Shown in pieces: positions 22,226-62,014 of a stretch of DNA of 64,000 nt. Every line of letters starts with the position of its first letter. Positions within the stretch are counted from its first letter, which is position 1. The notes below the pieces were generated by a model. The model was not told the DNA's origin and searched no databases. It saw nothing but the letters and a program-made list of their open reading frames with translations. Position numbers and translations under genes: made by a program. This stretch comes from Aminobacterium mobile DSM 12262 (GTDB lineage: Bacteria > Synergistota > Synergistia > Synergistales > Aminobacteriaceae): the NCBI RefSeq assembly GCF_000526395.1, contig NZ_JAFZ01000004.1:1-64000 (forward strand). Reading direction: 5' to 3'.

Positions 22226-23506
22226 TTACAGAAAAACTCCTCTCATGCGAGCAGCATCTGCTACACGCTGAATGGCTGCCATAAAGGCTGCCCGGCGCAT
22301 TTTAACGTTCTTTTCCTCAGAGTAACCCCAAACTTTTTTGAAATTCTCTTTCATGATTCGGATCAAACGTTCGTTATACTCTTCTATGGACCAGAAGAAT
22401 CCACCGAGGTTCTGAGCCCACTCGAAGTATGAGCCTATAACTCCGCCTGAGTTAGCAAGAAAATCTGGAACAATCAAAACGCCCTTCTCATCGAGGATAG
22501 CATCAGCACCAGGAGTTAAGGGACCATTAGCAGCTTCAACAATATATCGCGCCTTAACTTTGTCAGCGTTTTTATCGTTGATTACGCCTTCAAGAGCTGC
22601 AGGAATAAAGAGATCTACATCGAGGAAAAGGATGTCAGTAAGTCCCATCTTCTCAAGGCCTGGCTGCTCATAGCCTTCAAGAAGTTTCTTGGGATGGACA
22701 TTCTGCACATGATGCATGGCCTTATCAATATCTATACCGTCTTTGCAATAATATGTTCCTGTAATATCGCTGATACCAACTACTTTTCCGCCAGCATCCT
22801 GAAGAGTCTTTGCGGCATAGGTTCCAACGTTACCAAAGCCCTGGATAGCGAAAGTCGCGCCTTTTACATCCTTCTTCAAAGCCTTGAAAAGCTCAAGAGC
22901 ACACGTAGCAACACCATATCCCGTTGCTGCCGTGCGACCTTTCGATCCCCAGAGACCCACTGGTTTACCCGTAAAAATAGCAGGTTCTAAGCGGCCTCTC
23001 ATTTTACTGATGGTGTCCATGAACCAAATCATCTCAGGAGCTCCTGTATTCACGTCTGGAGCAGGAACGTCAGTCCAGGCATCAAGGAAGGGCTCCATAC
23101 GAGCTGCATAGGTTCTCGCTACACGTTCTTTTTCCTTCTTCGACATTTCGAGGGGATCACAGCAAACGCCACCTTTCCCTCCGCCGTAAGGAATACCTGC
23201 GAGGGAACATTTCCATGTCATCATCATAGCAAGAGCTTCACACTCGTCCAAGCAGACTTCCGGATGGAATCGAACTCCACCCTTCGCTGGCCCAACAGCC
23301 GTAGAATGTTGCACGCGATAGCCTTCAAATACCTTGATAGTTCCATCATCCATTTCTACAGGAATGGAGACTGCAACCTTACGCTCAGAGTGGCTCAGAA
23401 TTTCAACAAGCCCATCTTCGAGGCCCATCTCTTCGGCAGCACCATAGAAGTTTTTCAGGGCCGTATCAAGGAGCACATTAGAGGACGTACGCTTAACCAC
23501 GGACAT
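22226..23506 (-). CDS. gdhA: Glu/Leu/Phe/Val dehydrogenase (glutamate dehydrogenase type)
   Basis: The enzyme deaminates glutamate oxidatively to 2-oxoglutarate and ammonia, or the reverse, with NAD(P). The 426 residues contain the substrate lysine motif PYGGGKGGV, the K in GPAKGGVR, and the Rossmann GFGNVGTYAAK. Length and pattern fit hexameric class II GDH as in clostridia and archaea. An ATG at 23506 is used with AGGAGG ten bases before; a TTG one codon earlier is an alternative. It is monocistronic, convergent with asnS. In an amino-acid fermenter this is a central catabolic enzyme. Confidence 0.93.
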   Translation of the reverse strand: MSVVKRTSSNVLLDTALKNFYGAAEEMGLEDGLVEILSHSERKVAVSIPVEMDDGTIKVFEGYRVQHSTAVGPAKGGVRFHPEVCLDECEALAMMMTWKCSLAGIPYGGGKGGVCCDPLEMSKKEKERVARTYAARMEPFLDAWTDVPAPDVNTGAPEMIWFMDTISKMRGRLEPAIFTGKPVGLWGSKGRTAATGYGVATCALELFKALKKDVKGATFAIQGFGNVGTYAAKTLQDAGGKVVGISDITGTYYCKDGIDIDKAMHHVQNVHPKKLLEGYEQPGLEKMGLTDILFLDVDLFIPAALEGVINDKNADKVKARYIVEAANGPLTPGADAILDEKGVLIVPDFLANSGGVIGSYFEWAQNLGGFFWSIEEYNERLIRIMKENFKKVWGYSEEKNVKMRRAAFMAAIQRVADAARMRGVFL

Positions 23507-23713
23507 CAAACAAACACCTCCTACAAGCTAACGGTTCACGCCATTATTCAAACCAACGTCATTAAGAACTCTTTATTTACAATAATATCACGAATTTTAC
23601 ATACCACCCAACAATAGACCGTCAATTTTGTTAAATAGTACTTTATACCCAGAATTAACTCGATAATTCAGAAAAAGGAATACTTTATACTGTATGTTGT
23701 GCTCTTTATACAT

Positions 23714-23748
23714 AAAAAAGAGGAAGAGGGTTAACCCTCTTCCTCTTT
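23714..23748 (-). terminator. Terminator of the apgM to selenoprotein operon
   Basis: A perfect 16-bp inverted repeat, AAAGAGGAAGAGGGTT with its complement, lies 15 bases after the stop codon of the selenoprotein gene. On the minus strand it ends in six consecutive T residues. Confidence 0.85.
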
Positions 23749-23763
23749 CAAAGCTTCATTTTC

Positions 23764-24093
23764 CTAATGGCAATGACAACTTCCACAACTACTAGATCGT
23801 GAATGTCCGATGAGAGCTGATTCCACAACAAGGTTCGACGCCCAAAGGAAGCCTCTCAATTCTATTTTTACCTCATCGTTCTGGAACTCCATGAAATCTG
23901 GAATCCATAACTTTACTCCCTTTACATCATAGGAAGTATATCCCTGAGCCGCTGGCGGCATACCACTCTCTACGAGAACGGCACGAACAGCAGCTCAACC
24001 ACCACCTACGTTTCTTTCAATTAAGAAAGCTTCACTCATCTTCGACAAACGTTCAAATGCTTTATCAGATATGGCGATTTTTAAATCTCTCAT
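23764..24093 (-). CDS. HesB/IscA-like selenoprotein with in-frame UGA (Sec33)
   Basis: Read through one UGA (23995-23997), this frame gives a 109-residue protein from ATG 24093, nine bases after GGAGG, to TAG. The sequence around the UGA is NVGGG-U-AAVRAV. It resembles the GGGC motif of HesB/IscA A-type carriers with selenocysteine in place of the first cluster cysteine, and the C-terminus carries CGSCHC in place of CGCGxSF. A HesB-like selenoprotein family is known. A long hairpin starts at the UGA (described separately). The gene closes the operon apgM-yhaM-rluA and has its own terminator. Normal annotation would report only the last 65 residues. Sec insertion genes are not in this window. 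A nonsense mutation is the alternative but is much less likely. Confidence 0.85.
23946..23996 (-). promoter_or_regulatory. Bacterial SECIS-like hairpin
   Basis: The mRNA immediately at and after the UGA can fold into a two-part stem. The outer arms GAGCTGCTG (23988-23996) and CAGCGGCTC (23946-23954) pair over 9 bp. The inner arms CGTGCCGTTCTC (23974-23985) and GAGAGTGGTATG (23959-23970) pair over 12 bp with G-U wobbles around a GUA loop. The apical loop is 21 nucleotides after the UGA, inside the range known for bacterial SECIS elements bound by SelB. Confidence 0.75.
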
Positions 24094-24128
24094 GCCTCTA
24101 CACCTCCACTCCCTCTATCTTAAAAGCA

Positions 24129-25076
24129 TTATACCCCCTTAAGGTATATCTGCCAACCCCTCTTCTCAAGGAATTTAGAAAAAAGTTCATCGGGTGGGGC
24201 TACAAAAATTTTCCCCTCCCGATCTTTCAGAGGTGAGGATACGTGTTTAAACTGCACTTTCCACGCATGAAGCAACGGGTGATTAAGACCAATACGATGA
24301 TGCCATTCTCCATTAACCGCATCATCGCCATATTTCACATCTCCAACTATAGGATGACCGATAGAAGCCAGATGGACTCTGATTTGGTGAGATCGTCCCG
24401 TTATAAGTTCTACCTGAAGCAAAGAATAGTCCTGATCCCCTGCGATTTTTACATAACGAGTAAGGGCCGATTGTCCCTCTGGATTGACAGTTACAATATT
24501 ATGCTCTCTATCTTTTAACAATGGCGCGTCTATAGTTCCTTCATGAGGGGTTTTTCCCCGAACAGCTACTAAATAAAATTTTGCTATATCGTCATCCCTC
24601 AACGCTCGCTGAAGCTCTCGAAGAGCCTGTCCATGCAGAGCAATGATCACTAAACCAGATGTGTTTCTGTCGATACGATGGATAGCAGCAGGGCGAAAAT
24701 CAGCTTTTTCCCCCACAATATTCCATACTCGAGTAATTACACTGTCCCCTCCTTGGCAATCTGGTTGCACTAATAACCCAGCAGGTTTGTTAATAGCCAT
24801 GAGCATGGCATCTTGATACACTATCTCGAGTTCTTTTCCATAAACAGGGGAAAGGGCTGGAGCAGGAATATTTTCTGCTGGCTCCCAAGGAACAATAACA
24901 GTTTGCCCCTCTTCAAGGTGGAAAGAGCAATCTACTTTCTTGCCATCCACCCGTACAAGGCCCTTTCGTATCCCCTTCATCATGGCTCCCAAGGGAAGAC
25001 GAGGCCAAAGGGATCGAATAACCTTATCGAGCCTTCGACCCGCTTGATGAACTGAAACCTTAAAAGAGCAGGACAT
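24129..25076 (-). CDS. rluD: RluA-family 23S rRNA pseudouridine synthase
   Basis: The 315-residue protein isomerises uridines in large-subunit rRNA. It has an N-terminal S4 RNA-binding domain (about 12-70) and the RluA catalytic domain with HRIDRNTSG (133-141), whose Asp136 is the nucleophile. Family features such as ITGRSHQIRVHL are present. Exact target sites (RluC versus RluD type) cannot be decided by eye, so the symbol is tentative. It follows the YhaM-like gene by 6 bases and precedes the selenoprotein gene by 35 bases. Confidence 0.9.
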   Translation of the reverse strand: MSCSFKVSVHQAGRRLDKVIRSLWPRLPLGAMMKGIRKGLVRVDGKKVDCSFHLEEGQTVIVPWEPAENIPAPALSPVYGKELEIVYQDAMLMAINKPAGLLVQPDCQGGDSVITRVWNIVGEKADFRPAAIHRIDRNTSGLVIIALHGQALRELQRALRDDDIAKFYLVAVRGKTPHEGTIDAPLLKDREHNIVTVNPEGQSALTRYVKIAGDQDYSLLQVELITGRSHQIRVHLASIGHPIVGDVKYGDDAVNGEWHHRIGLNHPLLHAWKVQFKHVSSPLKDREGKIFVAPPDELFSKFLEKRGWQIYLKGV

Positions 25077-25082
25077 GCGCTA

Positions 25083-26096
25083 TTACTCCCATTTCCAAAA
25101 TCGGCGCTGAGCAGAATAGCTCCACTCAGATATCTCTTTACCATCATCAATCTGGTCTACAGCGTCTCTCCAACAATACAGCTTAAAGTCCAACTCATCT
25201 GCCGCTGAAACAATCATGGCCTCAGGAGTAGCTGGGACAACGGGAGAACCGAATTCCTTACTTCCATGATGGCTCACTACAATATGCCCTAATGCCGAAG
25301 CATACCGCTGATCAAGGTTGTACTCTTCAAAAAGACGAGCTAACCGGTTATATCCCAAAACTATGTGATCGATAACAGTTCCCTCAACTGTCATTTCGGG
25401 GGCTGGAGAGAGTTTATAAGAATCTAACTTCCCTATATCATGCAATAACGCTCCGCCAATAACAATATCTCGGTTTACTTCGTACCCAGAATGAGAGCTA
25501 GCCTCTGCCATGGAACAAGCCAATCGAGCTACTCCAAGTGTATGTTCCAGCAAACCAGAAACATATGCGTGATGGTGAGAAACAGCAGCAGGCCAAACTT
25601 TGAAGCATTCCCAGAACTCCCCCTTAAAAACAAAGTTTAAAAAATCTTTTATAGGAGAGGTACATGTTTCTATCATCCCACGAAAGTCTTTCTCCATATC
25701 TTCTTCTTCGAAAGGAGAACGCTGCACAAAAGAGTGGGGCTTATATCGCTCTTGGTCCACATAAAAAACCGCGTTAAAATTATATTGAGACTGGCCTCGA
25801 AATTCCACAACTTGACCTAAAAGACCTATGCTGTGTCCAGCCAAATCGGTGGTCAGTTCCCATGTCAGGGGATCTATCGATTGTTGAGGTTCTACACGTC
25901 GATCCCACCATTGGGCATTCCCCCAGATTTTACCCTCAAGGGCACCTTCCTCATCCATAATGGATAGCTCCCAATAGGTTTTTCCATTACGGTCTCTTTT
26001 CGATATTATTTTATTGACGACACCAAGACAATAAAATTTACTCTCCCGAGGCAGCTTTCGAACAGCTCCTGTTTTAAGATATTCAACTTCCGCCAC
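25083..26096 (-). CDS. YhaM-like 3'-5' exoribonuclease (OB-fold plus HD domain)
   Basis: The 337-residue protein has an N-terminal OB-fold nucleic-acid-binding domain (about 10-110) followed by an HD hydrolase domain with HHHAYVSGLLEHT, the metal pair in LLHDIGKLDSY and a later HHGS motif. This is the layout of the YhaM/CBF1 family of 3'-5' exonucleases acting on RNA and DNA. The start is placed at GTG 26096, seven bases after AGGAGG; the TTG at 26123 would put that Shine-Dalgarno inside the gene. It is second in the apgM operon. Confidence 0.88.
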   Translation of the reverse strand: MAEVEYLKTGAVRKLPRESKFYCLGVVNKIISKRDRNGKTYWELSIMDEEGALEGKIWGNAQWWDRRVEPQQSIDPLTWELTTDLAGHSIGLLGQVVEFRGQSQYNFNAVFYVDQERYKPHSFVQRSPFEEEDMEKDFRGMIETCTSPIKDFLNFVFKGEFWECFKVWPAAVSHHHAYVSGLLEHTLGVARLACSMAEASSHSGYEVNRDIVIGGALLHDIGKLDSYKLSPAPEMTVEGTVIDHIVLGYNRLARLFEEYNLDQRYASALGHIVVSHHGSKEFGSPVVPATPEAMIVSAADELDFKLYCWRDAVDQIDDGKEISEWSYSAQRRFWKWE

Positions 26097-26123
26097 ACAA
26101 ACTCCTCCTATCCTGAAACTCAA

Positions 26124-27338
26124 TCAAGCTCCATATTTTTCTAATTTCAAGCTGTGAGCTAACAATAATCCCATAAGTTTTTCTCCCGGCAAACGCCCCA
26201 GAGTTCCAGAGGCGCAGCTCCGCTCACCAAAGAACAACGCTCCACTTCGACGGGCATAAGGGCTCCAAAGCAAAACGGGAACATCATGCCATGAATGGCC
26301 GGCGAGGCGCGATGGCGTGCTATGGTCACCTGTAATTGCTAATACATCAGGTTTCAAGTCGAGGATTTTAGGAAGAAGTCTGTCTACCTCCTCTATCACC
26401 TTCACCTTTTCACCAAAGTTACCATCCTCTCCTCTACTATCTGTGTACTTCACATGGACATAGAAAAAATTATATTCTGACCAGTATCTGCCAACAGAAT
26501 GGAAAAGCTCTTCCATTGTTTCTCCTGGCTCTCCAATATCCATGCCTACAAGACGAGCCAAACCTCGATACATGGGGTATGTGGCCAATGCTATTGGTTT
26601 TATCTTGTATAGTTCAGAAAGAGAGGGGAGATGAGGCGCAGAGGAAAAACCTCTTAGGAGGCACCCATTAGCAGGAGTCTCCGATTTTAATACTTCCCAA
26701 ACACGGCGAATAAAACCATTGATAATTCTCTCTGTTTTCTTTGCCTCTTCATTTTGAGCTACGGCCCAGCGCATAGGGTGACCATCTTTTTGAGGATCTG
26801 CATCATGGACAGCTTCAGACAAGCCTTCACCTGAAAAAACAACTACAAAACGATGTTCTTTGCCCGGATAGAACGTTACTTTCACATCGTCAATAGAATG
26901 AATAGCCTGCTGAAGTTTTTTTATAATTTCCTCGCTTTTTTCCGTGGGAATGCGGCCAGCTCTACGATCCACAATAATATTTTTTTCATGATCCACTGTA
27001 CAAAAATTCCCCCTGGCACAAACATCTCCAGCACCTACATGAGCTCCAACACCAAGAGCTTCGAGAATTCCCCGTCCAATTGACCACGTAAGAGGATCAT
27101 ACCCAAAAAGAGCCAAATGGCCTGGACCACTTCCTGGCGTAATTCCAACATCTACCATAGAAAGAAGTCCCATTTCACTTTCAGCCGCTAAACGGTTCAT
27201 AAGAGGAGTAACAGCCTCTTCCAATTCTGTCGATCCCTCTTCTCCTGGAAGACCCCCAAGACCATCCATGACGAGCAAAAGAATTTTCTTTTCATTCTCT
27301 GTTGCCAACGATTGAAGCAGTTCTGCACGGGACACCAC
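26124..27338 (-). CDS. apgM: 2,3-bisphosphoglycerate-independent phosphoglycerate mutase, archaeal type
   Basis: ApgM interconverts 3- and 2-phosphoglycerate. The 404-residue alkaline-phosphatase-superfamily protein has the N-terminal metal motif LLVMDGLGGLP, the nucleophile region ITPGSGPGHLALFGYDP, and the C-terminal metal motifs TGDHSTPS and GHSWHDVPVLLWSP. These are typical of the archaeal aPGAM rather than the GpmI form. The start is GTG with GGAGG seven bases upstream. It is the first gene of an operon with yhaM-like, rluA-like and the selenoprotein gene. The archaeal form is also found in several bacterial phyla, so transfer is not proven. Confidence 0.95.
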   Translation of the reverse strand: MVSRAELLQSLATENEKKILLLVMDGLGGLPGEEGSTELEEAVTPLMNRLAAESEMGLLSMVDVGITPGSGPGHLALFGYDPLTWSIGRGILEALGVGAHVGAGDVCARGNFCTVDHEKNIIVDRRAGRIPTEKSEEIIKKLQQAIHSIDDVKVTFYPGKEHRFVVVFSGEGLSEAVHDADPQKDGHPMRWAVAQNEEAKKTERIINGFIRRVWEVLKSETPANGCLLRGFSSAPHLPSLSELYKIKPIALATYPMYRGLARLVGMDIGEPGETMEELFHSVGRYWSEYNFFYVHVKYTDSRGEDGNFGEKVKVIEEVDRLLPKILDLKPDVLAITGDHSTPSRLAGHSWHDVPVLLWSPYARRSGALFFGERSCASGTLGRLPGEKLMGLLLAHSLKLEKYGA

Positions 27339-60814: not shown

Positions 60815-62014
60815 GTGGAAACATCCCGTCACTACGAATTTGATATCGAGCGGTATATGCCCCGAGAGAAATTCGAAGAAATAAAGGCTTTTGCTGGCAA
60901 CAAAGAAACCCCTTGTCTTATTGTGGATTTAGACAAGATAGAAGAGCAGTTCGACTCTCTTCAAAAAGGGATGCCCTTTGCGAAAATTTATTACGCTGTA
61001 AAAGCTAATCCGCTTGATGACGTGGTGAAGCTGCTCGTAGAAAAGGGCAGCTGTTTCGATATTGCTTCAGTCTATGAGCTGAATCAGGTTCTAGCCCTTG
61101 GAGCAACACCGGATCGTGTCAGTTATGGTAACACAATTAAGAAAGCAAAAGACATTGCTTATGCATATGAAAAAGGAGTTCGCCTTTTTGCCACAGACTC
61201 GGAAAACGACCTCTACAAGCTCGCCCAAAATGCTCCCGGCTCTAAGGTCTTTTTCCGGATTCTCACTGATGGAAGCGGGGCCGACTGGCCTCTTTCCAGG
61301 AAATTCGGAGCCCATCCTGACACTATTTACAAGCTTATTATTATGGCGAAAGGGTTGGGATTGGTTCCCTATGGAGTTTCATTTCACGTGGGTTCTCAAC
61401 AGAGAGACCTGGGTCAATGGGACCATGCCATATCCACATGCAAATACCTTTTTGATGCAGTAGCTGAAAAAGGGATAAAGCTTAAAATGATCAATTTGGG
61501 CGGAGGGTTCCCTTCAAAATATATTTACCCTACCGTCGGCCCTGATGTATACGGCACTGAAATAACTCGTTATCTAAAGGAAGATTTTGGTGAAGACCTC
61601 CCCGAAATTCTTCTCGAGCCCGGCCGCTATATGGCTGGCGATGCAGGAGTTTTGGTTTCAGAAGTAGTTCTTGTCTCAAGAAAATCTGAATATAATCAAT
61701 ATCGTTGGGTCTATCTCGACGTTGGCAAGTTTGGTGGGCTTATTGAAACATTGGATGAATCGATTAAATACCCGATTTATGTAGAAAAAACAGGGTTGAC
61801 TCAAGAAGTAATATTGGCCGGTCCCACATGTGACAGTATGGACATCCTTTACGAGCAAGAAAAATATGAACTGCCATTAACCTTAGAGGAAGGTGACCGT
61901 GTCTACATTTTTACTACTGGTGCCTATACTCAAAGTTACTCGTCTATTTACTTTAATGGGTTCCCACCTCTGGCAGCTTACATCTTACCTCGGGGGTCTC
62001 ATAAGGAGAAGTAA
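60815..62014 (+). CDS. Ornithine/lysine decarboxylase, fold-type III (alanine-racemase-like) PLP enzyme
   Basis: The 399-residue enzyme decarboxylates ornithine or lysine to putrescine or cadaverine. It has the PLP lysine in YYAVKANP, the HVGSQ and GGGFPS motifs, the LEPGRYMAGDAG loop and the substrate-side cysteine in GPTCDSMD, typical of ODC-like rather than diaminopimelate decarboxylase. Start is GTG seven bases after GGAGG. It precedes spermidine synthase by 38 bases, which strongly suggests a polyamine operon. Whether it prefers ornithine or lysine cannot be decided. Confidence 0.88.
   Translation: METSRHYEFDIERYMPREKFEEIKAFAGNKETPCLIVDLDKIEEQFDSLQKGMPFAKIYYAVKANPLDDVVKLLVEKGSCFDIASVYELNQVLALGATPDRVSYGNTIKKAKDIAYAYEKGVRLFATDSENDLYKLAQNAPGSKVFFRILTDGSGADWPLSRKFGAHPDTIYKLIIMAKGLGLVPYGVSFHVGSQQRDLGQWDHAISTCKYLFDAVAEKGIKLKMINLGGGFPSKYIYPTVGPDVYGTEITRYLKEDFGEDLPEILLEPGRYMAGDAGVLVSEVVLVSRKSEYNQYRWVYLDVGKFGGLIETLDESIKYPIYVEKTGLTQEVILAGPTCDSMDILYEQEKYELPLTLEEGDRVYIFTTGAYTQSYSSIYFNGFPPLAAYILPRGSHKEK

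Follow-up and report, generated by a model that had tools for sequence, protein, structure and literature searches.

A-type Fe-S carriers (IscA, SufA and ErpA) are characterized by three cysteine ligands, one internal and two in a C-terminal C-x-C motif (C35, C99 and C101 in IscA). Their fold alone is no proof of cluster carriage, since DsrR of Allochromatium vinosum is an IscA-like protein, yet is not known to be an Fe-S carrier. Among selenoprotein families, NF041239, the 'CC/Se motif family (seleno)protein', is already listed in a 2026 review, whose Table 1 enters it as a 'hypothetical protein predicted in Moorella thermoacetica' (PMC13188914); the family is also entered, under no family name, in PMC9312934. 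The NF041239 entry itself carries neither a fold nor a function. The phylum Synergistota has already been described as rich in selenoproteins (PMC5029168).

The gene discussed here lies in the window, i.e. the whole stretch of 64,000 nucleotides from Aminobacterium mobile DSM 12262 (Synergistota; contig NZ_JAFZ01000004.1) that was analysed. Our main reading, to which we assign a probability of roughly 0.9, is that it encodes an NF041239 selenoprotein with a HesB fold, whose Sec33 is decoded via SelB. Among the open-access texts searched, PMC13188914 alone uses the terms 'NF041239' and 'Se motif family', and its available portion makes no tie to HesB; absence from these texts is no proof of novelty. 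No description was found, in the available portions of that literature, of the HesB fold, of where Sec sits in the structure, of the distribution within Synergistota or of the exported-looking relatives.

Gene, reading frame and family

The features of the locus are collected in Table 1. With UGA read as Sec, the gene gives a product of 109 aa, MRDLKIAISDKAFERLSKMSEAFLIERNVGGGUAAVRAVLVESGMPPAAQGYTSYDVKGVKLWIPDFMEFQNDEVKIELRGFLWASNLVVESALIGHSRSSSCGSCHCH. A readthrough protein of this length, with one UGA at this place, had been proposed in an earlier note made from the sequence alone, which gave no strand; it is the minus strand that carries the gene, and no open frame runs along the plus strand of the same interval. 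A Shine-Dalgarno-like GGAGGTG is found 7 nt 5' of the ATG.

Table 1. Features of the selenoprotein locus in the window. Genome counts given for neighbours refer to genomes carrying the family, within 6 kb.
Feature	Position	Strand	Description	Basis
CC/Se motif (NF041239) selenoprotein gene, predicted HesB fold	23764..24093	-	109 codons + TAA, one Sec (UGA); ATG at 24093, TAA end at 23764	translation with TGA = U, family match, 62 relatives in phylum
In-frame UGA = Sec33	23995..23997	-	read from 23997 to 23995	invariant Sec/Cys column in 28-sequence alignment; TGT in the Cys copy of the G113 tandem pair
SECIS-type hairpin	23944..23998	-	lower stem 23998-23988/23954-23944; upper stem 23985-23974/23970-23959; loop GUA 23973-23971	
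C-terminal cysteine motif CGSCHC	23770..23787	-	C103, C106, C108	translation; shared by the genus and one subclade, missing or reduced in other members
Intrinsic-terminator-like hairpin	23716..23749	-	15 bp, T-rich tail; directly 3' of gene	pattern scan
Promoter-like site	24128..24156	-	TTGGCA-17-TATAAT, 11/12; directly 5' of gene	pattern scan, consensus match only
RluA-family pseudouridine synthase	24129..25076	-	immediately upstream neighbour	TIGR00005 214 bits; close upstream in 33 genomes
YhaM-like 3'-5' exoribonuclease/HD protein	25083..26123	-	next upstream	NF010007 132.7 bits, below equivalog cut-off; kept in 29 genomes
Cofactor-independent phosphoglycerate mutase (ApgM type)	26124..27338	-		NF003160 613.7 bits; kept in 19 genomes
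Glutamate dehydrogenase	22226..23509	-	next downstream, past terminator-like hairpin	NF040817 457.6 bits, below equivalog cut-off; kept in 16 genomes

ORF calling under the standard code leaves two ORFs, of 32 aa (24093-23995) and of 65 aa starting from Met45 (23961-23764), so that the first 44 residues disappear from a normal annotation, just as had been anticipated. The present finding corrects the annotation, because the standard code splits the gene and half of it is lost. The same split is what would be seen if the UGA were a true stop, within a pseudogene, at a sequencing error or between two small genes. This explanation is scarcely credible: 56 sequences from all over the phylum retain the UGA, relatives have Cys in its place, a conserved hairpin follows it, and the protein is constrained on both of its sides (dN about 0.07-0.20, dS above 1.4 or saturated, in comparison with two other Aminobacterium genomes).

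The protein matches NF041239 with 45.2 bits (E 7.1e-12, over 88 residues, UGA being read as Cys; cut-off 40), and so do all 28 aligned members, while a Pfam search of the window protein matched no family. The window protein is not matched, at E up to 1, by the model of the known HesB-like selenoproteins, TIGR01911 (cut-off 66.35 bits), which has no match above its cut-off in 188 Synergistota genomes either. Membership in that family, as initially suggested, has consequently to be given up in favor of NF041239, which is a different listed family.

NF041239 members were found in 48 of the 188 Synergistota genomes searched. The 63 family sequences, that of the window included, comprise 56 with exactly one in-frame TGA, 4 with Cys at that position and 3 with neither. 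The Cys homologues are a tandem copy in genome G113 (TGT) and three exported-looking relatives. Invariant columns in the 28-sequence alignment are, besides Sec/Cys, G30, G32, V41, G44 and P65. Three relatives in which the conserved position holds neither Sec nor Cys, L074 and L109 (genomes G185 and G186) and L069 (G119), indicate that the residue can be lost in paralogues. A single-sequence scan of the genome contigs returned no relatives, and tblastn against plasmid records returned one weak match.

Some additional features of the relatives were recorded. In G113, the Sec copy (TGA) and the Cys copy (TGT) lie in tandem (L054:3678-4479). The genome of A. mobile contains a second, divergent NF041239 relative (L050:5006-5353, contig C1 at about 483,000), which has an in-frame TGA, a GU-loop hairpin of its own and an N-terminus resembling a signal peptide. 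G121 contains a similar gene (L080), beside an AddB-like nuclease gene. Signal-like N-termini are present in some relatives, and the exported-looking ones bear, at the same position, either Cys (YSC in L060, L075 and L079) or Sec (YYTU in L067 and L082).

Selenocysteine machinery and SECIS-type hairpin

The search for selA, selB, selC and selD that had been called for shows all four to be present in the genome, and the proposal thereby withstands the chief refuting condition set by the earlier note, a lack of this machinery. SelB scores 363 bits (cut-off 242), SelA, whose gene adjoins selB, 557 bits, and SelD, which has an in-frame TGA of its own, 327 bits; tRNA-Sec is matched by RF01852 with 67.7 bits (cut-off 47) on contig C1:1158603-1158697. 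A YedF selenium-metabolism gene (L017:7386-7997, minus strand) adjoins selA-selB and is transcribed in the opposite direction. Within the window, a tRNA-Sec call made by ARAGORN at 61030-61110 (plus strand) was rejected, as it falls inside a decarboxylase-type ORF (60815-62014) and the Rfam-supported tRNA-Sec is the one on C1; the Rfam scan over the window gave no matches. At the level of the phylum, 45 of the 48 family-bearing genomes have SelB, versus 82 of the 140 others (Fisher p 1.9e-6, not corrected for kinship). The three family-bearing genomes without SelB are 56-83% complete. Genome G010 has a family member with UGA and SelB, and no SelD over the cut-off.

In the bacterial SECIS model, a G is located in the first two positions of the loop, which lies 16-37 nt from the UGA (PMC13188914). 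The hairpin following the UGA of the window agrees with it, having a GUA loop at a distance of 21 nt. The two-part stem originally described holds for the upper 12 bp, the loop and the SelB-compatible distance; the lower stem, in contrast, is of 11 bp and not of 9. RNA from 24003 to 23940 folds at -30.6 kcal/mol, compared to -20.6 (sd 2.8) for shuffled sequences (z -3.6, none of 200 as low).

Among 38 distinct sequences, covariation amounts to 0.337, versus 0.216 upon shuffling (none of 500 reaching the observed value) and at most 0.148 in slid registers. The G and U of the loop are invariant, and 7 of 9 pairs are altered on both sides, one of them being C-G in 18 sequences and U-A in 18. Since the hairpin region is also coding, synonymous recoding with local codon usage was applied: the upper stem has 7.13 of 8 pairs where 5.31 are expected (p 0.006 for the window), and CTC encodes the loop-closing leucine in 49 of 51 cases, versus about 26% locally, although, the sequences being related, these tallies of pairing and codons are not independent counts. 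Three sequences rebuild the stem round the same GU loop with very different bases (CCACGGTCCGTGG, CCACGGTTCGTGG and TCTTCAGGGTTGAAGA). The Cys copy of G113 has CTG at the loop-closing leucine and matches the hairpin more poorly. From an alignment of 42 columns, RNAalifold predicts no more than the inner 5 bp of the hairpin. Compensatory changes thus preserve the upper part of the hairpin to a degree that the needs of the protein do not account for.

The complete decoding machinery, the conserved UGA, its replacement by Cys in relatives and a conserved, covarying SECIS-type hairpin uphold the proposal of a selenoprotein, and it is practically certain that the gene is a genuine one, decoded with Sec.

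Predicted fold

Structure was predicted by AlphaFold from the window protein and four relatives, at loci found with a narrower alignment. The model (pLDDT 80, pTM 0.70) features one early strand and a helix, followed by strands, and a C-terminal tail with pLDDT below 50. The first ten Foldseek matches are proteins of the IscA/SufA fold, led by SufA, IscA, AQ_1857, HI1723 and DsrR. In VIA-align, Z is 7.0 for SufA and 6.4 for IscA, and the ten matches with that fold, the lowest at 4.1, stand clear of the next, unrelated row at 2.1, with sequence identities of 10-21%, a TM of about 0.5 and the tool's own warning that Z below 8 can reflect a common arrangement.

Profile comparison agrees with this picture. 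The alignment by hhalign of the family to IscA, SufA, ErpA and two more proteins (E 3e-6) sets Sec33 opposite IscA Cys35, and placement is the same with the Sec column masked (E 5.5e-5); its score, 38.9, compares with no more than 16.8 in 60 column shuffles. The window protein does not match PF01521 (gathering score 26.3 bits), while the best relative, with U read as C, reaches 25.0 bits (E 2.3e-5), just under that score. As the family profile, run by hmmsearch against PDB sequences, yielded chance matches only, the link to HesB rests on the profile-profile and structure comparisons and on this near-cut-off match. Taken together, they make a HesB/IscA fold very probable for the modeled protein, and the description of the product as HesB/IscA-like, with the Sec of GGG-U at the first cluster-cysteine position, stands as far as the predicted fold is concerned.

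Fold and position raise the question of a true A-type carrier, which would bind a cluster or iron through Sec33 and two tail cysteines and take the place of undetected IscA, SufA or ErpA. PF01521, which covers these proteins, is found at E 0.001 in none of the 188 Synergistota genomes, so that recognisable A-type carriers are apparently missing from the phylum, and the CGSCHC tail of the window clade could, with Sec33, still ligate a cluster. The candidate ligands of the window (U33 with C103, C106 and C108) are spaced differently from those of IscA, and the set is lost in many relatives. Among 56 members, 12 have a vicinal U-C and no tail cysteine; of the others, 20 have one, 16 two or more and 8 none. 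The Sec-containing A-type carrier of the earlier note is not supported, because the C-terminal cysteines are missing, or down to one, in much of the family; some relatives, in addition, look exported. Nor could such a carrier be a general replacement in the phylum, as the family is present in only 48 of the 188 genomes. Overall, we consider carriage unlikely.

A tail cysteine is found in none of the 12 U-C members and in 36 of the 44 others. This mutual exclusion is a lead only, because the tree, which is poorly resolved, offers just 1 to 3 independent contrasts and does not separate it from ancestry.

Genomic context

The promoter-like site and the terminator-like hairpin flanking the gene allow its transcription on its own. 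Promoter and terminator scans in the region are near shuffle level, and the terminator-like hairpin is weak evidence by itself, because the scan finds no more such sites here than in shuffled sequences. The recurring order of phosphoglycerate mutase, YhaM-like nuclease, RluA synthase and selenoprotein gene points to a locus of old standing, passed on vertically, more than to a functional partnership; the adjoining RluA synthase is not part of the mechanism.

The neighborhood bears on another possible role, that of a trap for soft metals or metalloids (Hg, As, Cd) or for electrophiles, acting through the selenol and the tail thiols. A cysteine-rich tail combined with Sec would suit it, no redox-partner gene adjoins the locus, and such roles are proposed for other small, cysteine-rich selenoproteins (PMC13188914). 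The conserved surroundings are, in contrast, of the housekeeping kind (phosphoglycerate mutase, exoribonuclease, pseudouridine synthase, glutamate dehydrogenase), and resistance or transport genes were not found among the neighbors. A trap appears rather improbable.

Possible role and comparison with known systems

The family, the Sec position, the decoding machinery, the SECIS conservation and the predicted fold were computed here; chemistry and role we infer. SelB, with Sec-tRNA, would read the hairpin just 3' of the UGA, and Sec33 would be inserted into a small cytosolic protein of 109 residues with the HesB/IscA fold, placing a selenol where A-type carriers hold their first cluster cysteine. 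This selenol and the thiols of the flexible tail (C103, C106 and C108) could then engage in reversible selenenylsulfide redox chemistry. Such chemistry, rather than Fe-S cluster carriage, has in our opinion about an even chance of being the role of the protein. On a broader and more tentative view, which falls somewhat short of even odds, an entire branch of the HesB/IscA fold, made up of selenoproteins that are cytosolic or look exported, may have given up Fe-S carriage and turned to redox reactions, using Sec at the former first-ligand position together with an adjacent (U-C) or a tail thiol. If so, a carrier fold would have been the starting point of a redox protein, and this in a phylum without any detected canonical A-type carrier.

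Because Sec occupies the first-ligand site of an IscA/HesB fold, carrier, redox and metal-trap functions can be tested on one small protein. In addition, a predicted fold and a structural position for Sec are now supplied for a listed family that is still entered as a 'hypothetical protein'.

With the TIGR01911 family, the window protein shares the HesB type and the replacement of the first conserved cysteine by Sec, but the UxGP motif of that family is absent from it. It resembles the A-type carriers IscA, SufA and ErpA in its predicted fold, with Sec33 at the position of IscA Cys35; their CGCG tail is, in contrast, CGSCHC here, and other members retain a single cysteine or none in its place. 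DsrR (2K4Z) is among the structural matches (Z 5.8), but is without Sec and has another genomic setting. As a member of NF041239, the protein passes the curated cut-off and has Sec at the conserved position. It differs from the CxxU motif of the review table, having GGGU followed by Ala and the CGSCHC tail, and most Synergistota members have GxGU; CxxU is an annotation, not a criterion of the model, and leaves the match over the curated cut-off unaffected.
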